A stretch of DNA of 64,000 nucleotides from Rhodothermales bacterium. GTDB lineage: Bacteria; Bacteroidota; Rhodothermia; Rhodothermales; VXPQ01. Below, in pieces: positions 3,606 through 14,209 of the stretch; the first letter of the stretch is position 1, and each line of letters opens with the position of its first letter. The stretch covers positions 2,030,731 through 2,094,730 of the forward strand of contig OX638293.1 of NCBI GenBank assembly GCA_951812335.1, written 5' to 3'. The notes under the pieces are model-generated. The model did no database searches, was not told the DNA's origin, and saw nothing but the letters and a program-made list of their open reading frames with translations. A program made the translations under genes and the position numbers.

Positions 3606-3654
3606 ACCGTCCGTTCGGAATCGCTCTCTGTACGATTTTTCCTCTGGTTTCGCT

Positions 3655-3809
3655 GTAAGTAGACTGATCGGTCTACTTACAAGGGATATGTGGTATACCG
3701 ATCGGTCTACTTATGGTTCTTCTGGTATACTGATCGGTCTACTCTGATCTTTTTGCGGTATACCGTCGGGTTTACTTGCTGGGCGATCCCGGTATACAGA
3801 CTGGTATGC
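3655..3809. promoter_or_regulatory. Array of five TetR-type operator palindromes at 32-34 bp spacing
   Basis: Five 18-bp palindromes begin at 3659, 3693, 3725, 3758 and 3792. The best is GTATACCGATCGGTCTAC at 3693; the first has 10-bp perfect outer arms GTAAGTAGAC and GTCTACTTAC (3655-3680). The right halves decay with distance from the gene: GTCTAC three times, then GTTTAC, then GTATGC. Start-to-start spacings of 34, 32, 33 and 34 bp put every site on about the same face of the helix. They sit directly upstream of the TetR gene and are presumably its binding sites. Confidence 0.8.
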
Positions 3810-4094: not shown

Positions 4095-5006
4095 TCAGAA
4101 GCCCAGTGCCTCTCGCACCGCATCAAGGAGCGACTGCGAATCCTGGGTCGCATCCATAAAAATCGCTTCGGGGTCGCCCCTGAACCATGTTTCCTGTCGT
4201 TTGGCGTAGCGGCGCGTGTTTTGCTTGATCAGACGCACCATTTCGTCTTCCGTGATTTCGCCCTTCAGAAACGCGATAGGCTCCCGGTAGCCGATCGTGC
4301 GCAGCGGATTGAGCTCCGGATCGTATCCTGCCTCGAGTAGGCCGCGTACTTCGTCGACAAGACCCGCCGCGAGCATCTCGTCCACGCGGCGCTCGATGCG
4401 GGCATAGAGTTCCTCCCGATTTCGCTGCAAAACGATGGTCCGGAACGCATAGGGAGGAGGCGCCTGGGTTTCGTGAAAGCGGCTGAGAGGGATGCCGGTT
4501 GCCTCGTATACCTCGAGGGCGCGGGCAAGACGTTGCGTTTTGGTCGCGTCCATGGTAGCAGCCGCGCGGGGATCGACCTGCTGCAATGCCTCGTACAGCG
4601 CCTCGGGGCCTTCCTGGTCGAGACGTTTCCGGATATGGGCGCGTATCGAAGGCGGGATGTCGGGAATATCGGCAAGGCCATTCAGGAGGGCCCTTAAATA
4701 CAGGGTGGAGCCGCCCGTAACGAGGGGGATCCGGCCCCGGTCGAGAATATCGGCAATGCGGTCAAGGGCTTCGGACATAAACATACCCGCCGAAAAAGGC
4801 TCTCCGAGGGACCGCTCGTCGATGAAATGGTGCGGAATGCGCTCCAGTACATCCTGACCAGGCTTCGCAACACCGATAGTAAGCTCCCGATATACCTGCC
4901 GGCTATCCGCAGAGATGATTTCTGATTCAAGTAATACTGAAAGATTTATGCCTAATTCTGTCTTACCCACTGAAGTAGGGCCAGTTATAACAGGTATAAG
5001 ATTCAT
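4095..5006 (-). CDS. miaA: tRNA dimethylallyltransferase
   Basis: MiaA transfers a dimethylallyl group to N6 of A37 in tRNAs that read codons starting with U. The 303-residue length is typical. The P-loop 'GPTSVGKTELG' is at residues 8-18, followed by 'IISADSRQVYREL' and 'IPHHFIDE', which are hallmark segments around the catalytic Asp and the tRNA-binding site, and 'VTGGSTLYLRALL' near residue 97. The conserved C-terminal 'KQNTRRYAKRQETWFRGD' is present. The gene stands alone on the minus strand, with the relict fragment 5023-5226 just upstream. Confidence 0.96.
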   Translation of the reverse strand: MNLIPVITGPTSVGKTELGINLSVLLESEIISADSRQVYRELTIGVAKPGQDVLERIPHHFIDERSLGEPFSAGMFMSEALDRIADILDRGRIPLVTGGSTLYLRALLNGLADIPDIPPSIRAHIRKRLDQEGPEALYEALQQVDPRAAATMDATKTQRLARALEVYEATGIPLSRFHETQAPPPYAFRTIVLQRNREELYARIERRVDEMLAAGLVDEVRGLLEAGYDPELNPLRTIGYREPIAFLKGEITEDEMVRLIKQNTRRYAKRQETWFRGDPEAIFMDATQDSQSLLDAVREALGF

Positions 5007-5022
5007 TGTATATATGGGTCAA

Positions 5023-5226
5023 TCAACCTGTTTTGCCGTGTGACATCAGTGTGAGGCAGTTGGCGCCGTGCAACCGGCGCAGAAATTGCTCGAACGCTTC
5101 GGACTCGACATGCACGGCGTTGGCGGTACAATAACGTTCGAAAAACGCAATTGCTTCTGAATCGCCCAAATGATCGAAGGGCAATCGATCAAGCGTCTCT
5201 ATCGGAGCCTTCGTCCAGCGACAGGC
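5023..5226 (-). pseudogene. Possible 3' fragment of a lost gene (67 codons, no start)
   Basis: Between miaA and the subtilase gene, a minus-strand frame of 67 codons is bounded upstream by TAA (5227-5229) and has no plausible start. It reads with protein-like composition: 'APIETLDRLPFDHLGDSEAI', 'AFFERYCTANAVHVESEAF' and 'EQFLRRLHGANCLTL'. The pattern resembles a helical region after the nucleotide domain of an AAA/STAND-type ATPase, but that is only an impression. It is probably the tail of a gene whose front was removed when the neighbouring LRR gene was placed here. Confidence 0.4.
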
Positions 5227-5265
5227 TTACCGGGGGCCTGTGGTATCCACCCGCACGAACATCCC

Positions 5266-8200
5266 TTACCTGACAACCACGAAGCGGCCCACACCTGTTG
5301 AGCTGCCCCCGGGCGATACCGCGATAAGGCGGTACAGGTACAGCCCCGAAGACAGCGCCGCACCGTTCAGTTCAATGCTGTGCTCCCATCCGGAGGCCAG
5401 ATCCACCGGCGCTATAGCAAGCGCGCGCCGGCCCGTTAGGTCCATTACTTCAACGGTCACGCGTGCCGGCCAAGGCAGATCGAACACGATGCGGGTCCAT
5501 GCACGGAAGGGATTCGGGTAATTGCCATGCACGGCAAACGATTCCGGCAATGTCTCGTGCTCAACAGCCACTGGTGAAAACAGCTCAATAGTGAAGTGCA
5601 AACTGTCGGCGGATCCGTTCATGTCGGTCGCAGTGTACGTGTAGGGCAAGGGACCTTGCGTGACTTCCGTCGGCGTACCGCTGATCGTGCGCGTTGCCGA
5701 GTCAAAGCTTAGGCCTGTCGGCAGTGTAGGAGCCAGCGTGTAATCGATCGGCGGCACACCCCCCAAGGCTTCAGGCAAGACCAGCGGCGCAATGGGCTGT
5801 GCTCTGGGAAAGGTTTGATTTGCAATTGTACCTGTAAGATGCAAAGATGCGCAGGTGGGCCCGTCTGTATTCGGGATGCTGCTCAGCCACGCCTGGAAGT
5901 CATTGTCCGCCGGTGCGCACAGTTCCTGGCCGCCAAAGTGGAAAGTGCTTAGACTGTCCAGCTGCATGAGACTCCGCGGCAGCACACCTGTCAGCGAATT
6001 GCCGCGCAGAGACAGCGTTTGCAAAGCCGAAAGATTGCCGAGTTCGGTCGGAAGCGGCCCCGTCAGCGAATTGTTGTGCAGCCATAGCACCTGCAATTCC
6101 GAGAGATTGCCGAGTTCGGGCGGGATCGGCCCGGTTATGTCATTATCGGACAGTAACAGCTGTTGCAATTCCGAAAGATTGCCGATTCCGGCTGGAAGCG
6201 GCCCCGTCAGCGAATTGTTGTGCAGCCATAGCACCTGCAATTCCGAGAGATTGCCGAGTTCGGGCGGGATCGGCCCGGTTATGTCATTATCGGACAGTAA
6301 CAGCTGTTGCAATTCCGAAAGATTGCCGATTCCGGCCGGAAGCGGCCCCGTCAGCGAATTGTCGAACAGCTGCAGCTCTTGCAATTCCGAAAGATTGCCG
6401 ATTCCGGCCGGAAGCGGCCCCGTTAGCGAATTGCCGCGCAGAGACAGCCTTTGCAAAGCCGAGAGATTGCCGAGTTCGGCCAGAAGCGGCCCCGTTAGCG
6501 AATTGCGGGACAGATTCAGCGTTTGCAATTCCGAGAGATTGCCGAGTTCGGCCGGAAGCGGCCCCGTTAGCGAATTGTCGGACAGAGATAACCATCGCAA
6601 TTGCGAAAGATTGCCAATTTCGGCCGGGATCGGCCCCGTTAGCGAATTGTCGGACATCCAAAGCACCTGCAAAGCCGAGAGATTGCCGAGTTCGGCCGGA
6701 AGCGGCCCTGTTAGCGAATTGTCGAACAGCCGCAGATCTTGCAATTTCGAGAGATTGCCGAGTTCGGAAGGGATCGACCCCGTTAGCGAATTGTTGGGCA
6801 GATACAGCTCTTGCAATTCCGAGAGATTGCCGAGTTCGGGCGGAAGCGGTCCCGTTAGCGAATTGCCGCCCAGCCACAACCATAGCAATTCCGAGAGATT
6901 GCCGAGTTCGGGCGGGATCGGTCCACTCAGCACATTGTAGTGCAGATACAGCACTTGCAATTGCGAAAGATTGCCGAGTTCGGAAGGGATCGGCCCGGTC
7001 AGTGAATTGCTGTGCATAGATAACCATACCAATTCCAAGAGATTGCCGAGTTCGGAAGGGATCGGCCCGGTCAGCGAATTGTTGAACAGCTCCAGCAACC
7101 GCAATTCCGAGAGATTGGCGAGTTCGGAAGGGATCGGCCCGGTCAGCGAATTGTTGAACAGCTGCAGCGCCCGCAATTCCGAGAGATTGCCGAGTTCGGA
7201 AGGGATCGGCCCGGTCAGCGAATTGCTGCGCAGATTCAGCCGTTGCAATTCCGAGAGATTACCGAGTTCGGGCGGAAGCGACCCCGTCAGATTATTATTA
7301 AACAACGCCAGCTGATACAGCCATCCCTGACTGAGTAAAACGCCAAACCACGAGGCCAGTGCTTCCTCACTCGGAACCGTCGTGATGTCCCAATGGTCAT
7401 TGCGCGTCCATTCGTCCCCGCCGGTGGCCACGTATAATGCACTCAAGCTTTGATGGACCGGCTCCAGCGACCGGTTGACCCGAAACGAAAGCTGGTCCGC
7501 CTCGTCCTCGTGTGCCCCTTCACGGATGTGCGTGAAGAAACGCACGCGCTGGTTGGCAGGCGCGTCCGAAGCCACCGTAAACTCCAGCCTGACCTCGACC
7601 GAGTCGCCACCGGCCAGGCTTCCGATATCGACCGACGCGGCAGTCAAGTCTATGAATGAATACGGTTCGGCCCCCACAAGCCCCACACTGAGTTGACGGG
7701 CATCGGCCAGGTAATTGACTAACGTTGCCGTTACCGTTACCACATCGCCCGAAGCAATCTGGCGGTCACCGTCGTCGTCCACCCAACTCCAGCGCTTGAG
7801 GCGTACAGCGGGTACAGCCGGCATGTCGAGGGCCGCCAGCGCGTTTACAAACCCCCGCCCGAGCCGTCCGGCCAGGTCCGGATTCTCCGCATCCATATTG
7901 TCGCTCGTAAGCCTAATATGCTCCCGCAGCGCGTCCGGTCCCATGTTGGGAAACCGGGTCTTCACCAATGCCGCCACGCCTGCCGTCAACGGCGACGAAA
8001 ACGACGTCCCGCTGGCAGATATATAGCCGTTGTCTGATCCGGTGGTCACGATGTCCTCGCCCGGAGCAAAAACGTTTACCAGCTTTCCGTAATTCGAGAA
8101 AAACGCCCGTCTGCGCGTGTCTTTCTCCGTTGCACCCACCGACAGCACGCGCGGACTACGGGCCGGATAGAACCGGAACAGATCGTTGCTGAGCGCAAAA

Positions 8201-9201
8201 TTACCGGCGGCGGCTACCACAAGAGCTCCCATGTCCGTAGCCAGATTCAGCGTCTGGTCCGGAAACCTGATAGAATCATCGCGTATCACCAGGCCTCCCC
8301 AGCTCGCATTGATGATATCTGCCCCATTGGCCGCCGCATAGAGGATGCCCTCGTAGCCATAGCAGATATAAAAATCACCCTGCTCGCACCCAGTATTGAT
8401 GTGCATCAGGTCGGCGTTCCAAGCGGCGCCGGCTACCCCCACACCGTTGTCGGTCACCGCGCTGGCCACACCCGCACTGGCTGTGCCGTGATTGGCATTT
8501 AAAGGTGTCTCGGGCAATCCCGTCGGATCGTTGTCCGTGTCGTCGCCGTTGGCGAAGTTGACCCCGTGCACGTCATCGATAAACCCGTTACCGTCGTCAT
8601 CTATGCCGTTGCCCGGAATCTCGCCCGGATTCGTCCATACGTTGGCGTGAAGATCCTCATGGCGCCATTCGCCACCGCCGTCCACGATCGCAATCACGAC
8701 CCGCGGCGCCCCATCCTCGCTTTTGACCTCATCCCAAGCCTCCGGCAAACGCAGGCGCCTGAGTTCCGTCTGGTCGCCAAATCGCGGATCATCAGGATCT
8801 ATACGTTCCCGGATGTGCGATGCCTGCGTGCGGTTAACGAGTACCGGCTCGGCATATACCACGCCAGGGGCCGCAGCCAGATCGCCAGCTACCTGTTCGG
8901 GGTCAGCGCGGGCGCGATAGCGCACATAGTACGTGCGGCGCAGCGCCATCAGATTGCGCCGGGTCTTTGGCGTCGGCTGCACGTGATCCAAAAACGGATA
9001 TACGCGCTCGATCAGGTATACTTCGTATCGATCTGCTCTGCGATCGAAATCCCCCAGCCCGGTTGCGCCGGATTTATTCGCAATGAAGACATCGGAGGCG
9101 AACTGTACCACTACCACATGGTCCGCATATTCGGGTTCGGGACGGTCCTGAGCCGCAGCCAAAGGCGCAACCAAGACCAGAGAGAGCAGCAATGCTGTCA
9201 T
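5266..9201 (-). CDS. Secreted subtilisin-like protease with LRR array and T9SS sorting domain
   Basis: This protein has 1311 residues from ATG 9201, which has AGGCGGAG just upstream and gives a signal peptide 'TALLLSLVLVAPLAAAQ'. In-frame starts at 9237, 9252 and 9348 are possible and would give a more basic N-terminus. The S8 protease domain shows the triad Asp174 (AIVDGGG), His238 (NHGTASAGV) and Ser400 (GTSFSSP). From about 635 to 1070 there are some 18 plant-type 24-residue LRRs of the form 'LPPELGNLSELQxLxLxxNS'. A putative Ig domain (GLSFDSATRTISGTPTE) and a T9SS type A domain (NYPNPF ... LASGW ... SSGLYLYRL) follow. It is expected to cross the outer membrane and be surface-attached or released. 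Substrate unknown. Confidence 0.88.
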   Translation of the reverse strand: MTALLLSLVLVAPLAAAQDRPEPEYADHVVVVQFASDVFIANKSGATGLGDFDRRADRYEVYLIERVYPFLDHVQPTPKTRRNLMALRRTYYVRYRARADPEQVAGDLAAAPGVVYAEPVLVNRTQASHIRERIDPDDPRFGDQTELRRLRLPEAWDEVKSEDGAPRVVIAIVDGGGEWRHEDLHANVWTNPGEIPGNGIDDDGNGFIDDVHGVNFANGDDTDNDPTGLPETPLNANHGTASAGVASAVTDNGVGVAGAAWNADLMHINTGCEQGDFYICYGYEGILYAAANGADIINASWGGLVIRDDSIRFPDQTLNLATDMGALVVAAAGNFALSNDLFRFYPARSPRVLSVGATEKDTRRRAFFSNYGKLVNVFAPGEDIVTTGSDNGYISASGTSFSSPLTAGVAALVKTRFPNMGPDALREHIRLTSDNMDAENPDLAGRLGRGFVNALAALDMPAVPAVRLKRWSWVDDDGDRQIASGDVVTVTATLVNYLADARQLSVGLVGAEPYSFIDLTAASVDIGSLAGGDSVEVRLEFTVASDAPANQRVRFFTHIREGAHEDEADQLSFRVNRSLEPVHQSLSALYVATGGDEWTRNDHWDITTVPSEEALASWFGVLLSQGWLYQLALFNNNLTGSLPPELGNLSELQRLNLRSNSLTGPIPSELGNLSELRALQLFNNSLTGPIPSELANLSELRLLELFNNSLTGPIPSELGNLLELVWLSMHSNSLTGPIPSELGNLSQLQVLYLHYNVLSGPIPPELGNLSELLWLWLGGNSLTGPLPPELGNLSELQELYLPNNSLTGSIPSELGNLSKLQDLRLFDNSLTGPLPAELGNLSALQVLWMSDNSLTGPIPAEIGNLSQLRWLSLSDNSLTGPLPAELGNLSELQTLNLSRNSLTGPLLAELGNLSALQRLSLRGNSLTGPLPAGIGNLSELQELQLFDNSLTGPLPAGIGNLSELQQLLLSDNDITGPIPPELGNLSELQVLWLHNNSLTGPLPAGIGNLSELQQLLLSDNDITGPIPPELGNLSELQVLWLHNNSLTGPLPTELGNLSALQTLSLRGNSLTGVLPRSLMQLDSLSTFHFGGQELCAPADNDFQAWLSSIPNTDGPTCASLHLTGTIANQTFPRAQPIAPLVLPEALGGVPPIDYTLAPTLPTGLSFDSATRTISGTPTEVTQGPLPYTYTATDMNGSADSLHFTIELFSPVAVEHETLPESFAVHGNYPNPFRAWTRIVFDLPWPARVTVEVMDLTGRRALAIAPVDLASGWEHSIELNGAALSSGLYLYRLIAVSPGGSSTGVGRFVVVR
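6061..6348 (-). repeat. Near-identical 144-bp duplication inside the LRR array
   Basis: Bases 6061-6204 and 6205-6348 differ at one position seen by eye. Each encodes two LRRs (48 residues), so the protein repeats two units exactly. The identity contrasts with the divergence of the other LRR units and points to recent unequal exchange or replication slippage. Confidence 0.85.
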
Positions 9202-9304
9202 GCTCCGCCTATCAACTTTGCCGGCAATTACGCCCATCAAGTCACGCGACATTTGTGCAAGTAATAAGGTGTGTAAGGAATCATGGCAATACAGAGAAAG
9301 GTTG

Positions 9305-9353
9305 AGAGGTGGTTCGTTTTGATTGGACAGATTTCGGCGAGATTTCAAGGTGT
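9305..9353 (+). mobile_element. Probable left end of an IS3-family element
   Basis: The sequence AGAGGTGGTTCG..TTGATTGGACAGATTTCGGC..AAGGTGT stands just upstream of a transposase orfA. A closely similar solo copy lies at 12401-12449 in the same orientation without any transposase. Such conserved ends carrying 'TGGACAG' fit IS3-family terminal repeats. The right end of this element was not found. Confidence 0.55.
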
Positions 9354-9396
9354 ACCGTTGCGAACTTGTTCCGATCCAATCAACCAGAGGAGACCC

Positions 9397-9687
9397 ATGT
9401 CAAGACGCACACGCAGAACCCACAGTCCTTCGTCCGAGGCGAAGGTAGCCCTTGCCGCCATGCGCGGCGACAGCACGCTGGCCGAACTCGCAGAACGCTT
9501 CGAGGTGCACCCGAACCAGATACGGTCCCGGAAGAGGCAGCTCACAGAGGGCGCCGAGGAGGCGTTCGTCCGAAGCCGCAACGTTCCGGACGAACGCGAC
9601 AGGAAGATCGAGGCGCTTCACGCAAAGATCGGGGAGTTGTCCATGGAGAAGGATTTTTTATCGAAGGCGCTCGGTCGCGACCGTTAG
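9397..9687 (+). CDS. IS3-family transposase OrfA
   Basis: The 96-residue protein has a helix-turn-helix DNA-binding domain: 'KVALAAMRGDSTLAELAERF' and then 'VHPNQIRSRKRQL', followed by a leucine-zipper-like tail 'IEALHAKIGELSMEKDFLSK', as in OrfA of the IS3 family (transposase IS3/IS911, pfam HTH_Tnp_1). ATG 9397 follows an AGAGGAGA ribosome site. It appears intact, but the catalytic OrfB is truncated, so the element cannot transpose itself. Confidence 0.88.
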   Translation: MSRRTRRTHSPSSEAKVALAAMRGDSTLAELAERFEVHPNQIRSRKRQLTEGAEEAFVRSRNVPDERDRKIEALHAKIGELSMEKDFLSKALGRDR

Positions 9688-9701
9688 CCGAGCGCCGCGC
9701 C

Positions 9702-9887
9702 ATGATAGCGCGCACGCATCGCTTGCCCGTAGTTCGCCAGTGCAAACTTCTCGAACCGGGCCGTTCTACGGCTTACTACCGTCTCCGGGAAGAGAGTGAA
9801 GAGAATCTTGCCGTAATGAAACAGATCGACAGACTCTACATGGAGCGTCCCACGAGCGGATCGCGCACGCTAAAAAGCAATATATAA
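9702..9887 (+). pseudogene. Truncated IS3-family transposase OrfB
   Basis: The frame reads 'MIARTHRLPVVRQCKLLEPG', then 'RSTAYYRLREESEENLAVMK' and 'IDRLYMERPTSGSRTL', the HTH_21 N-terminal part of IS3 OrfB, and then breaks off at TAA 9885-9887. The DDE integrase core (normally about 200 further residues) is absent. The break lies just before the 3' end of the tyrosine recombinase gene. It is in a different frame from OrfA, as expected for a frameshifted OrfAB. Confidence 0.85.
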
Positions 9888-9946
9888 ATCTTATCGACAG
9901 ATCGTAAAGAAGTCAAAAATAGGCGTAAGGAAAATAATCCGCGCGC

Positions 9947-10930
9947 TCAATCGCTTTCCTTCTCAATACGGATATAATCTGCGGCACTGTCGCGCAAGCG
10001 GTCGCGCTGATGAACGTAGACCATGGTCGTCTCGATTTTTTTGTGGCGGGCATGCGACTGCACCTGTTGGATAGAAGCACCGGCCTCGATGGCGAGCGTA
10101 CAGCCTGTGTGCCTGAGCGAATGCGCCCCGATCTCCTGCGGGAGTCCGGCTCGCCGTGCGGTACGATCTACAATGCCGTAGATGGAACGCTCTGAAAGGC
10201 GTCGGCCAAAGCTATTGTTGCTCAGGGAGCGCCAGAGAGGGCCTTCCGTAATGCCATAACAGGTTTTCATGCGTTCGATCTCTTCCACCAGATGCTCGGG
10301 GATTTTAACATACTGATCAGCGCCGCCCTTCGTATCGGGAAGATCGAGCACCCAGTAGTTTCCGAGCGAGCGGATATGCTGTATATCCATGGCGGCAGCT
10401 TCCGAGCGGCGTAACACGCAGTGGAGGAGGGTAAGCAGAAGCGTCCGATCCCGTGGAGCTGTATGCGCTTGCTTGCCATCCGGACCAGGATGCGTTGCAG
10501 CCTGGATGAGCCGTTGGGCCTGCTCGCTGGTCAAAACCACATGAGTACGGTCGCGGCCGCCCGATTTACGGATACGGCGCAATACATGCCGGCTCGCCGG
10601 GTTTCTCGGCAATATGCCAAGGGCCACAAGCCATTCGCAAAACCCCCGAATGGCTGCGATTCGCCGCTTGATGGTAGCCGGCTTGTAGCCATTTTGCTCC
10701 ATCTCCGCGATGTGACGGTTGATGTCGGTAAAGGACAGGTCGCGTACCGTAACGGTATCCACAAAGTCGGACCCGAAGAAAGCGGACAAATCGTCTCCAT
10801 AGGCCTTACGCGTCCGGGGACGGTCGTAACGATCCAGAAAAGCATCGATGAGGTTAGCATCCGGACGGATGATCCCCGTGGCGACATCCATCAAGGCAGT
10901 GGGAGAAAAATCTGAACTCGAGTAGCCCAT
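9947..10930 (-). CDS. Tyrosine recombinase / phage-type integrase (Xer-like)
   Basis: This is a 327-residue recombinase. The N-terminal SAM-like core-binding domain covers residues 20-110 (e.g. 'ATIKRRIAAIRGFCEWLVAL'). The catalytic domain contains the first Arg in 'LLHCVLRRSEAAAM', the box 'HSLRHTGCTLAIEAG' (HxxR), then 'HARHKKIETTMVYVH' with the second His and the nucleophilic Tyr, so all catalytic residues are recognisable. Its size is that of XerC/XerD or small-element integrases. A dif-like 28-bp palindrome is found 194 bp upstream of the start. Two 16-bp direct repeats lie between. No excisionase is seen. Confidence 0.9.
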   Translation of the reverse strand: MGYSSSDFSPTALMDVATGIIRPDANLIDAFLDRYDRPRTRKAYGDDLSAFFGSDFVDTVTVRDLSFTDINRHIAEMEQNGYKPATIKRRIAAIRGFCEWLVALGILPRNPASRHVLRRIRKSGGRDRTHVVLTSEQAQRLIQAATHPGPDGKQAHTAPRDRTLLLTLLHCVLRRSEAAAMDIQHIRSLGNYWVLDLPDTKGGADQYVKIPEHLVEEIERMKTCYGITEGPLWRSLSNNSFGRRLSERSIYGIVDRTARRAGLPQEIGAHSLRHTGCTLAIEAGASIQQVQSHARHKKIETTMVYVHQRDRLRDSAADYIRIEKESD

Positions 10931-10938
10931 TTTTCTGT

Positions 10939-10970
10939 GTAGTTTATATCTGAAGTAGTTTATATCTGAA
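10939..10970. repeat. Two tandem 16-bp repeats upstream of the recombinase
   Basis: GTAGTTTATATCTGAA occurs twice head to tail with no spacer, starting 9 bp upstream of the recombinase start codon. It could be a binding site in the leader of the gene, or a slippage product. Confidence 0.75.
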
Positions 10971-11123
10971 AGGGTGAAAGAACGCTATACCGCACTCGAA
11001 AACGCCGCGGAGAACCGGGTAGGGACGACGACCCGTCCGAGACAACTATACAACCACCCGAGAATACCCACTGAATCCACCCGTATTTTAATCCCGATAA
11101 CCCAATGAGAATACCCTTGTTCT

Positions 11124-11151
11124 ACTTCCGATAAGAACTGTTATCGGAAGT
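11124..11151. other. dif-like 28-bp palindrome (11-6-11)
   Basis: The arms ACTTCCGATAA and TTATCGGAAGT are perfect 11-bp inverted repeats flanking the 6-bp centre GAACTG. This is exactly the 11-6-11 geometry of Xer recombination sites, with the inner ATAA/TTAT of the E. coli dif site. A tyrosine recombinase gene lies 194 bp away. A canonical promoter ends 7 bp to its right, so the palindrome would also form the first bases of a transcript; an operator or leader hairpin is the alternative. Confidence 0.55.
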
Positions 11152-11157
11152 AAATAT

Positions 11158-11186
11158 AGTATAAGAACACTGGAACGGGTTGTCAA
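11158..11186 (-). promoter_or_regulatory. Sigma-70-like promoter reading towards the recombinase
   Basis: On the minus strand TTGACA (11181-11186) is separated by 17 bp from TATACT (11158-11163). The predicted start, about 11151, falls at the edge of the 28-bp palindrome. The transcript would run through the palindrome and about 190 bp of leader into the recombinase gene. A perfect E. coli-type promoter is less usual in Bacteroidota relatives and may mark imported DNA. Confidence 0.6.
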
Positions 11187-11220
11187 GGGGTTTTTTGTTC
11201 TTTTTCGGGAGATGGCGGGG

Positions 11221-11796
11221 CTAAAACCGGAAGGATAAACCGCCATGCCACACGAAATCATTTAAGGACGAGGTCATTCCGTCTATGTTGTACCACTTGG
11301 CGCGATAAGCAGATGAGGCGTTAACGGAAAGAGATTCCGAGACGGGCATCCTGATGCCGATTGTTATTTGCGAAGCCCAACCGTTTATTGCCTCCCGACC
11401 GATATCTACTTTTTTATCTAATACTGGCGAATTGGCATAGCCGCTTAGGCGCCACTGCTCTAAGCCGAACATCACGCTGGTGTACAAGATGGTGCTCTCC
11501 GGCTTCTTCGTCAGAGGAAAGGAGTACATGAGACCCGTAAGTGACGCTATAAGGTTTTGGTCAAGTTTTACGATGTCATCCTTCTCCGATTTGGTATGCC
11601 ACGACACATACCATGCGCTATGCAAATCTCCGACAAGCCTTCTCTCTGCGTGTGCATAAAGGCCAAACGGGAATATCTCATGGTCGAAATTCGTACCGCT
11701 GTAGCCACCTCCAGCGTTCCAGTTGTAAGCCACATCCTGGGCGCCTGCAAAGAATGCTGGCCAGAGAAAACACAGGATTAGAACAAGATATCGCAT
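11221..11796 (-). CDS. Outer-membrane beta-barrel protein, unknown function
   Basis: The 191-residue protein from ATG 11796 begins with a signal peptide 'RYLVLILCFLWPAFFAGAQ'. The remainder alternates polar and hydrophobic residues in short strands with Trp/Tyr girdles, and ends 'WHGGLSFRF', a terminal Phe typical of outer-membrane barrels inserted by BamA. The longer frame from 11910 has no signal-like start and was not used. No family is recognised. It is divergent from the small Cys-rich secreted protein gene with 145 bp between them. A+T is a little higher than in the neighbouring housekeeping genes. Confidence 0.65.
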   Translation of the reverse strand: MRYLVLILCFLWPAFFAGAQDVAYNWNAGGGYSGTNFDHEIFPFGLYAHAERRLVGDLHSAWYVSWHTKSEKDDIVKLDQNLIASLTGLMYSFPLTKKPESTILYTSVMFGLEQWRLSGYANSPVLDKKVDIGREAINGWASQITIGIRMPVSESLSVNASSAYRAKWYNIDGMTSSLNDFVWHGGLSFRF

Positions 11797-11941
11797 GAAA
11801 AATTCCCGGTTTTTGAGACAGCCTTTGACGGAGCATATGATAGCCATCCTTGACACATTATGCAATATGATGTTATTTTTCTTGTCGGCTACGTACAATC
11901 CGTGGCTCAACGTAACGTATTAAGTAAAAACGGAGTAGATC

Positions 11942-12337
11942 ATGAAAACAAAGCTCCCTTTCGTTTTCCTGTTTGCGTTCGGCATCATGCTTGCTAGCCC
12001 ACTCACGGAAACAACCAAGATAGTACAGGGCCAAGTCGTAAAAGTAACACCCGACTGCCCGGAAACCGAAAGCGGTATCCCTCCCCCCGGGTGTAGCAAT
12101 GGAGGTAGCCCCCCATCTAGCCCCCCATCTAACCCTCAACCCCCACCAGAAGAGGAGGGTGACGACGGTGGGACAAGCGCCTGCTGTGGCAACAATAAGG
12201 TGGAAATCAACGGCACATGCTATTCGTGTTTTTATTTAGCTTTCCAGGCTACGGCAGGCTTGGCAAGCTCGGGTTTCAACTGGTTTGCGTTAGGCGCTGG
12301 CTTCGTTACGTACGTTGCATGTCGACTTGCGTGCTGA
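11942..12337 (+). CDS. Small secreted Cys-rich protein, unknown function
   Basis: This 131-residue protein starts with the signal peptide 'KTKLPFVFLFAFGIMLASP', has a Pro/Ser/Glu-rich linker (about 45-75), and ends with a module of about 60 residues holding seven Cys: an 'ACCGN' pair, 'GTCYSC', and the C-terminal 'ACRLAC', with a hydrophobic stretch 'FNWFALGAGFVTYVA' between. The ribosome site GGAG is 7 bp before ATG. The architecture of leader, flexible linker and compact Cys-rich hydrophobic module is seen in secreted toxins, bacteriocin precursors and surface anchors; nothing decides among them. A clear terminator follows at 12367-12398. Confidence 0.65.
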   Translation: MKTKLPFVFLFAFGIMLASPLTETTKIVQGQVVKVTPDCPETESGIPPPGCSNGGSPPSSPPSNPQPPPEEEGDDGGTSACCGNNKVEINGTCYSCFYLAFQATAGLASSGFNWFALGAGFVTYVACRLAC

Positions 12338-12366
12338 CCTTGTAACATATTCTAAATATTGGGTTC

Positions 12367-12398
12367 AAGGCCCCGTCGGTTATTCCGGCGGGGCCTTT
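12367..12398 (+). terminator. Rho-independent terminator after the Cys-rich secreted protein gene
   Basis: AAGGCCCCGTCGG and CCGGCGGGGCCTT pair with one wobble around the loop TTATT, with T residues at the 3' side. It lies 30 bp after the stop codon. Confidence 0.85.
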
Positions 12399-12400
12399 CC

Positions 12401-12449
12401 AGAGGTGGTTCGGGTTGATTGGACAGATTTTGCCGGAATTTAAGGTGTC
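12401..12449 (+). mobile_element. Solo IS-end copy
   Basis: AGAGGTGGTTCG..TTGATTGGACAGATTT..AAGGTGT matches the probable IS3-family left end at 9305-9353, in the same orientation, with several substitutions. No transposase follows. The two copies bracket the recombinase, the dif-like site, the barrel protein and the Cys-rich protein. Confidence 0.55.
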
Positions 12450-12549
12450 ACGGGGCCGTATCCGTATTATAAAGGGCAAACTTCTGCACCCGGATCGCTT
12501 CATTCTGAAAACCGGGATTAAATCCCTACCCCTCTTGCCTTTTATCCCA

Positions 12550-13473
12550 ATGCGGCTGACGCCCCGTTCGCTTTTTGCCTGTATCCTTCTGACGTTCCTG
12601 CTGGTTGCTTGCGGCGGGTCGCAGAACGAACTTCTGCCCGAATCCGTCACGCAGCAAACGGTGTTTACCATAGGTGGCGACCGCCCTGCGACCCTGAAGC
12701 TGCCTATGGGATACGATTTCATGGGGGTCCTTCCTGTCGTGATCGCCCTGCACGGTCACCCAGGCAATTCTATGGGCTTTGATGCGTCTTGGGGGCTTTC
12801 CGAGCGGATCGACGCCGATAACTTTGCACTGATCCTGCCTGAGGGCACGCGTAATCCCGCGAATCGACGCTTCTGGAACGCTACAGGCTACTGCTGCGAC
12901 TTCTTCGAGTCCGGTGTGGATGACGTAGCTTATCTGTCCAGCCTGATCGAAGAGGCAGGCGAGTATATCCAGGTGGGCCACATCTTTTCGGTCGGACATT
13001 CCAACGGCGGATTCATGTCCTACCGCCTTGCCTGCGAAGGTTTTCCGGGCCTGACCGCGATTGCGCCGCTTGCGGGCAGCTCGTTTCTGGATCCAACCCG
13101 TTGCGAGGAAGCACCGCCGGTTTCCGTACTCCACATCCACGGTACCGCAGACCCCATCGTTCTCTATGCAGGAAGAGAAAGAATAAGGATGAACCGCGAC
13201 GGGTACGTCGGCGCTGAGGATGTGGTAGCGCGCTGGGCCAAACGCGCAGGATGCGATCTTTCCAAGGCCGAAGAACTTCCCGCCATCGACATCGACCGTG
13301 CCAACGACGGCGCGGAAACCGACCGCATTCGCTATCGCGAGGGCTGCCAGGACGGCATTACGGTCGAGCTATGGAAAATCAACGAGGGTTCTCACATTCC
13401 CGGGTTTACCCCGAACTATGCGGAGCTCCTGATCGACTGGTTGCTGAACGAATCCCGGACGGAAGCATCGTAA
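12550..13473 (+). CDS. Lipoprotein alpha/beta-hydrolase, PHB-depolymerase/LpqC-like esterase
   Basis: Starting at ATG 12550, the protein has 307 residues with a lipoprotein signal 'RSLFACILLTFLLVACGGS' (Cys after LLVA). The alpha/beta-hydrolase features are the oxyanion segment 'VVIALHGHPGN', the nucleophile elbow 'VGHSNGGFMSYRLAC', a later Asp in 'HIHGTADPIV' and the His in 'NEGSHIPGF'. These fit the polyhydroxybutyrate depolymerase / feruloyl-esterase-like LpqC family. It would hydrolyse esters outside the inner membrane. The frame extends upstream to 12415, but that part is solo IS-end sequence and AT-rich spacer. The stop codon directly abuts a dispersed element. Confidence 0.85.
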   Translation: MRLTPRSLFACILLTFLLVACGGSQNELLPESVTQQTVFTIGGDRPATLKLPMGYDFMGVLPVVIALHGHPGNSMGFDASWGLSERIDADNFALILPEGTRNPANRRFWNATGYCCDFFESGVDDVAYLSSLIEEAGEYIQVGHIFSVGHSNGGFMSYRLACEGFPGLTAIAPLAGSSFLDPTRCEEAPPVSVLHIHGTADPIVLYAGRERIRMNRDGYVGAEDVVARWAKRAGCDLSKAEELPAIDIDRANDGAETDRIRYREGCQDGITVELWKINEGSHIPGFTPNYAELLIDWLLNESRTEAS

Positions 13474-13726
13474 GGATACTCTGATTAATTCTGCAAAGTT
13501 CAGAGGCTTCGAGAAGCGCGCTGGCAAGGAATGACGAAGCAATGTGGCAGGCCCCACATAATGAGGAATGACACAGCAAGCGCGCTTCTCGAAGCCTATC
13601 GAAGGGCGCTTCATGTACGCCATGCACCAAATCACAGCATTTTTCGCTGATTTCAACGACATCGTCATGATGTCCTGTACGCACGAACATGAAGCGCTGA
13701 TCGAAGTAGAATTAATCAGAGTATCC
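13474..13726 (+). mobile_element. Dispersed 253-bp MITE-like element, full copy A
   Basis: The ends GGATACTCTGATTAATTCT and AGAATTAATCAGAGTATCC are perfect 19-bp inverted repeats. Inside, 13505-13522 and 13579-13596 form a perfect 18-bp stem (arm GGCTTCGAGAAGCGCGCT), closing a loop that contains a smaller stem, ATGTGG..CCACAT. No protein-coding capacity. The element begins right after the stop codon of the esterase gene. Confidence 0.88.
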
Positions 13727-13792
13727 GTAAGAAGGTACACTATCGGTAGGTATTAACTGCAACGCCCATTGTCCCGAAACCCCGCAAAAAAC

Positions 13793-14209
13793 ATGAAAGA
13801 ACGGTTCATGCTCAAGGCCCTGGGCCTTCTCCTGATCGTACTCAGCGCTGAAGAAGTTTTGCGATGGCTGATCGGATTGTTCGAAGGACGTATTGGTTTC
13901 GGTCTCGATAAGGACCTGCTCTTATTGCTTATCGGCATCGGGTTGTTTTATGCGCATCCGTTATGGCACAAGGCGGCAAGGGTGTACGTGATCTTGTGCG
14001 GCCTCGCGATCATTGTTATCGCCGCGCTGGCGTTTGCAGGATTCCCGGATATGGGGACTTGGCTGGAGTATGATGATACCCTCCAGGCCATCCCCCCTCC
14101 GTTCGTAGCGCTGTATGCGGCCGTGTTATTAGCGCTCCTCGTGTGGAGTTACGTATTCCTGCATAAAGCGGCTGTTGCGGATGAGGATGCGGAGGAAGTG
14201 TCGAGTTGA
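13793..14209 (+). CDS. Small four-helix membrane protein, unknown function
   Basis: About 138 residues with four hydrophobic segments: 'LKALGLLLIVLSAEEVL', 'LLLLLIGIGLFYAHPLW', 'VYVILCGLAIIVIAALAFAG' and 'VALYAAVLLALLVWSYVFL', then an acidic tail. Starts at 13769, 13793 and 13808 are possible; none has a strong ribosome site. No family is recognised. It converges on the alkD-like gene, with a shared terminator between them. Confidence 0.6.
   Translation: MKERFMLKALGLLLIVLSAEEVLRWLIGLFEGRIGFGLDKDLLLLLIGIGLFYAHPLWHKAARVYVILCGLAIIVIAALAFAGFPDMGTWLEYDDTLQAIPPPFVALYAAVLLALLVWSYVFLHKAAVADEDAEEVSS

Follow-up and report, generated by a model that had tools for sequence, protein, structure and literature searches.

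Does a tyrosine recombinase gene beside a long perfect palindrome in a Rhodothermales genome serve the chromosome, or an element that has settled there? The question arises from a 64,000-nucleotide stretch (the window; G000:C1:2030731-2094730), whose nearest named relatives are Rhodothermales metagenome-assembled genomes. The first-pass annotation had proposed either a chromosome-resolution unit or a mobile element that uses dif-like DNA. Modules in which a single recombinase gene is linked to its site are already known from XerS/difSL (PMC5357621) and XerH/difH (PMC2731167; PMC5357621), and a full-text search of the open-licence literature found no paper treating Rhodothermales, dif and Xer together. 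Comparison of the window with related genomes makes it quite probable that the locus is a self-contained, single-recombinase module for chromosome dimer resolution, with its site beside the gene at the replication terminus. The locus and its neighbours comprise:

4095-5006, minus strand: miaA, which adjoins xer in genus relatives and several other families and is split off here by a later insertion
9947-10930, minus strand: type I Xer tyrosine recombinase of 327 aa, open reading frame intact, catalytic residues complete
10931-11122, minus strand: leader separating dif from xer, differing among relatives in both length and sequence
11123-11152, no strand: dif-like site with 12-bp perfect inverted arms and a 6-bp centre, TACTTCCGATAA-GAACTG-TTATCGGAAGTA
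11158-11186, minus strand: sigma70-like promoter, TTGACA-17-TATACT, directed through dif towards xer
13769-14209, plus strand: small predicted membrane protein, the dif-side neighbour in genus relatives, split off here by insertion

The palindrome was initially described as two perfect 11-bp arms around a 6-bp centre, a description that holds, with the arms running to 12 bp. Its 28-bp core at 11124-11151 (ACTTCCGATAA-GAACTG-TTATCGGAAGT) has an 11-6-11 layout with inner ATAA and TTAT. At least 22 of its bases are palindromic, compared with an average of 16.3 of 28 in Proteobacterial dif sites (PMC2731167). The palindrome by itself is weak, at best moderately special, evidence because perfect 11-6-11 palindromes occur three times in the window, the other two at 3654 and 52188, where our base-composition estimate expects roughly 0.02 by chance in 64 kb. 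What lifts the site above chance is that it is unique in its genome, kept in six genus genomes and found upstream of homologues in other families. A search at up to 3 mismatches returned this single match in the closed, single-contig genome of 2,686,407 bp, and a search of the same genome for ATAA-N6-TTAT-NNN-AA gave one further match, at 2.134 Mb, whose arms are not dif-like. The palindrome at 3654-3681, near miaA, reads TGTAAGTAGAC-TGATCG-GTCTACTTACA and has a similar, imperfect copy at L050:3931.

The recombinase combines the Pfam Phage_integrase domain with a SAM-like N-terminal domain, and the full catalytic set previously ascribed to this gene is indeed present (R174, K201, H270, R273, H296 and Y305). 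Its closest solved relative is an Xer-like protein (PDB 4a8e, E 8e-12); an AlphaFold model, built from 5 near-identical sequences, had a mean pLDDT of 40 and was not used. A phage origin was considered and rejected, the best phage matches being ordinary integrases at about 30% identity. Among structural entries, PDB 9i5v chain 14 (401 aa), deposited as the ribosome-associated inhibitor RaiA, matches tyrosine recombinases over residues 19-300, which is a fusion or naming matter. The 28-bp site lies upstream of the recombinase gene, 193 bp from its start. Support for the promoter comes from conservation, since chance alone would give 0.6 such matches per 400 bp scanned: TTGACA-17/18-TATACT, with a spacer of 17-18 bp, precedes dif at the same place in 6/6 genus genomes. 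In the two most diverged genus relatives, dif plus promoter (window 11112-11196, or 11117-11196) gives an alignment of ~86%, and the leader between dif and the gene gives none.

Conservation of gene and site extends well beyond the window. The recombinase is present in all six genus genomes at 87-100% identity; that encoded by OX638295.1 is 97% identical to the window's. In each of these genomes (five genus-mates and the window's own) a site lies 102-253 bp upstream of the search-matched region, four of the sites being perfect and two sharing the same single arm change. Recombinases of this family, here termed type I, were recovered from about 35 of 60 order genomes searched, and a type I profile (E below 1e-60) run on a sample of 296 Bacteroidota genomes was confined to the order Rhodothermales. 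All of 30 type I proteins keep the Arg, Lys, His, Arg, His and Tyr positions. An ATAA-N6-TTAT site, mostly GATAA-N6-TTATC, occurs within 0.75 kb upstream in 22/29 type I loci examined; arm sequences differ between families and the spacing stays constant, as in ATGTTTGATAA-GTATTA-TTATCAAACAT of G046 and ACCTGTGATAA-CCCTTA-TTATCAAGGGT of G035. When these loci are pooled with those of a second recombinase type in the order (type II, discussed below), 62 kb of upstream sequence holds 30 sites, about 0.6 being expected from a background density of 0.010 per kb (23 sites over 2.29 Mb sampled), and 56 kb downstream holds 1. Of the seven outer-arm positions, a median of about 2 are mismatched at linked sites versus 5 at background sites, and in some families arms are imperfect at 5-6 of 11 positions. 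Six loci of family f3, together with G039, have no site within 1.5 kb of the gene. At the thresholds applied, neither type of recombinase was recovered from about six order genomes that are near-complete.

The position of the site relative to the replication terminus was assessed by GC skew from sampled stretches, with change-points fitted in 5-kb bins. In two genomes from two families the site falls in the change-point bin or the adjacent one (G012, change-point 3,477,500-3,482,500 and site 3,477,336; G016, change-point 4,462,500-4,467,500 and site 4,465,318), and in G004 it lies inside the fitted interval. The skew passes from positive to negative around the site in G017 and G018 and is ambiguous at the site in G036. 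For the window's own genome the fit used clipped values, because the bin at 447.5 kb read 1.0, probably through masking of bases. The best change-point there, 1,985,000, is 57 kb (2.1% of the chromosome) from the site at 2,041,867; the origin is near 0.58 Mb and skew around the terminus is irregular. Within the window, skew is strongly negative from 16000 to 48000 (about -0.05 to -0.17) and returns to positive values near 50 kb; a local inversion may account for this irregularity beside the terminus. In G007, of family f3, the gene has no adjacent site, and the site AGTTGCGATAA-ATCCAC-TTATCAGAAGT is 75 kb away, where skew flips from +0.087 to -0.114 in adjacent 4-kb bins. Another genome, G021, has a variant site on its main contig, and the dif core of family f3 (GATAAATCCACTTATC) recurs on a second contig (G021:C2:114641-114656), which is possibly a second replicon with its own dif.

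These observations bear on two other readings of the palindrome. It could be a mere expression-control element of the xer leader, an operator or a hairpin, the real dif lying elsewhere; its place immediately behind a good promoter would suit this role, as would the string TTATTATC inside the site, which could act as a -10 box in several families. A control element of this kind would hardly explain the constant 11-6-11 geometry with inner ATAA/TTAT or why even a site remote from its gene, as in G007, lies where the skew switches, and a search of the window's own genome turned up no rival dif candidate; we consider it extremely improbable that the palindrome is only that, and it may be both operator and dif. 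Nor is the recombinase at all likely to be the integrase of an IMEX-like or XerT-like mobile element exploiting or imitating dif, the other answer offered at the outset. Adjacency of an integrase gene to an att-like palindrome is what such an element would show, and paralogues at 47-49% identity in G001, G003 and G005, located elsewhere without a nearby site and set aside here, may belong to elements. Against this, the single copy of the site means that the module is not bracketed by two dif-like sites, as an IMEX would be; no element boundaries were found; the miaA-xer-dif order is conserved (miaA follows type I xer in the genus, G016 and G046); and inheritance within the genus looks vertical. 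The window carries two blocks that relatives lack, one at about 5043-9940 between miaA and xer, with an IS3-like remnant, and one at about 11220-13760 on the dif side; both flank the module and leave the site unsplit. The mobile-element reading has thereby been largely refuted. As to the content of the first block, which is missing from the same place in genus relatives, positions 5266-9348 encode a large subtilisin-like protease with many near-identical leucine-rich repeats. Between that gene and xer, positions 9400-9890 hold an apparently truncated pair of IS3-type transposase-like open reading frames, for which no Pfam match was found.

A third alternative concerns the number of proteins involved. 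The window's genome encodes two PF00589 proteins, the second at C1:40065-40868 (L002:1474-2394, minus strand). This core Xer homologue is present in every order genome examined, and in 28/28 genomes aligned it is without both catalytic arginines, the first replaced by Ser, Gly or Ala and the second by Thr or Ser; the Lys, His and usually Tyr positions are retained. Because the only other recombinase has lost both arginines, one competent enzyme is left in the genome, and the core homologue should not cleave DNA, at most assisting. The proposed search for a second recombinase pair and a dif elsewhere thus ended with a catalytically dead homologue and no other dif-like candidate. No protein scored above the XerD cut-off in 60 order genomes, a cut-off that is strict, since just 4/14 control genomes pass it. 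Order-wide retention with Lys, His and usually Tyr indicates selection on the core homologue for some function, which may be to bind DNA or to regulate, and this protein could occupy one half-site. The system might then be a two-protein Xer, in which the window recombinase cleaves and the second half-site is bound by the dead homologue in a structural or regulatory capacity, an arrangement with which the retention of the homologue and the asymmetric outer arms of some families would agree. We judge it unlikely: arms are identical in the window and G046 sites, so that arm DNA cannot distinguish two proteins there, and the core gene also occurs in genomes carrying the other recombinase type. Strand exchange by XerCD, moreover, uses both active sites.

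Chromosome dimer resolution by one recombinase remains the best-supported reading, and the earlier suggestion of a chromosome-resolution unit gains from the terminus position in closed genomes, the conserved linkage, the catalytic loss in the only other recombinase and the want of another canonical dif candidate. A different conserved dif at the terminus, coupled with a lack of the palindrome in recombinase-bearing genomes, was looked for and not found. In the proposed mechanism, one type I enzyme would bind both identical arms as a dimer. Once a chromosome dimer has arisen through replication and homologous recombination, its two dif copies would meet at the septum, probably with FtsK bringing them there, and a tetramer of this one enzyme would exchange strands across the 6-bp centre to yield two monomers. 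An FtsK gamma domain is encoded in the window's own genome (91.5 bits; gene at 1,989,502), and activation of recombination by FtsK is presumed here by analogy with XerCD, XerS and XerH. About 6 bp separate the -10 box from the start of dif downstream, so that the dif-bound enzyme probably also represses its own promoter.

Several known systems resemble this one in part. XerS/difSL of streptococci and lactococci shares the single recombinase, adjoining site and terminus position, but difSL is 31 bp long with an 11-bp centre and asymmetric arms, and XerS has 356 aa, against a 6-bp centre and 327 aa here (PMC5357621); on the XerS model NF003462 the window protein scores 39.5 bits, the cut-off being 267. 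XerH/difH of Campylobacter and Helicobacter likewise has a single recombinase, usually linked to a site near the terminus (PMC2731167; PMC5357621), but XerH is longer, at about 354-362 aa, and its similarity to the window protein is distant (PDB 5jjv, E 7e-6); difH resembles difSL, and the window site differs in architecture from its published description, so that the system falls outside XerH/difH. The closest site architecture is that of XerL/dif in Legionellales, where a single recombinase acts on uninterrupted 10-12 bp inverted repeats at the terminus; xerL, however, is >400 kb from dif in L. pneumophila and on a plasmid in Coxiella (PMC9765430), whereas gene and site of the window type are linked in most families. 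The comparison with XerL covers site architecture and gene position. With XerCD/dif of E. coli and most bacteria it shares the 28-bp 11-6-11 site, inner ATAA/TTAT, terminus position and FtsK gamma domain, but XerCD employs two active recombinases on partly symmetric arms, and the window protein belongs to its own clade, with scores below the cut-offs for XerC (TIGR02224, 111.2 of 335.15 bits) and XerD (TIGR02225, 103.7 of 329.6 bits). Archaeal XerA/dif also pairs one Xer enzyme with a 28-bp dif (PMC5357621); the XerA model NF040815 gives 101.3 bits, below its cut-off of 220. By the tests made, the window protein is thus not classed as XerC, XerD, XerS, XerA or XerH. One competent enzyme, a palindrome at the terminus and gene linkage (22/29 loci; not in f3) are all present, and on every feature that sequence can test, the system belongs to the single-recombinase Xer/dif functional kind.

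The type II recombinase places this module in a wider setting. It is XerD-like and occurs in 14 genomes of families f4, f5 and f15, all but G053 without type I. An upstream site with CATAA/TTATG arms was found at 8/14 type II loci examined, four of the eight being perfect palindromes (e.g., ATGTAACATAA-CAATAA-TTATGTTACAT), and miaA follows the type II gene in G009, G041, G058 and G033. Type I, type II and the core homologue each form a clade of their own, and a further group outside all three unites E. coli XerC with XerD. Some loci hold both types. In G053 (L219) the order is dif, type II, type I, miaA; in L200 (G018) and L214 (G037) a single dif-like site precedes a type II and a type I gene in tandem, the type I copy being catalytically degenerate; and family f14 has a type I copy lacking its catalytic residues, with a GATAA site on one side and an intact type II gene on the other. 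These arrangements suggest replacement or reduction at one locus. We tentatively propose an order-wide terminus locus, dif-xer-miaA, at which type I (mostly GATAA/TTATC) and type II (CATAA/TTATG) may have replaced each other in place beside a near-palindromic dif. A linked two-recombinase module would have lost now one enzyme, now the other, its arms becoming symmetric and a dead third Xer paralogue being retained throughout.

How a two-recombinase Xer system becomes a one-recombinase system is, to our knowledge, not settled. Because related genomes have either type or both at the same locus, with sites that can be compared in symmetry, the transition could be tested by swapping genes or arms. 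Symmetric sites with a small linked enzyme may also prove handy recombination tools, and for the Rhodothermales themselves likely dif sites are now identified.
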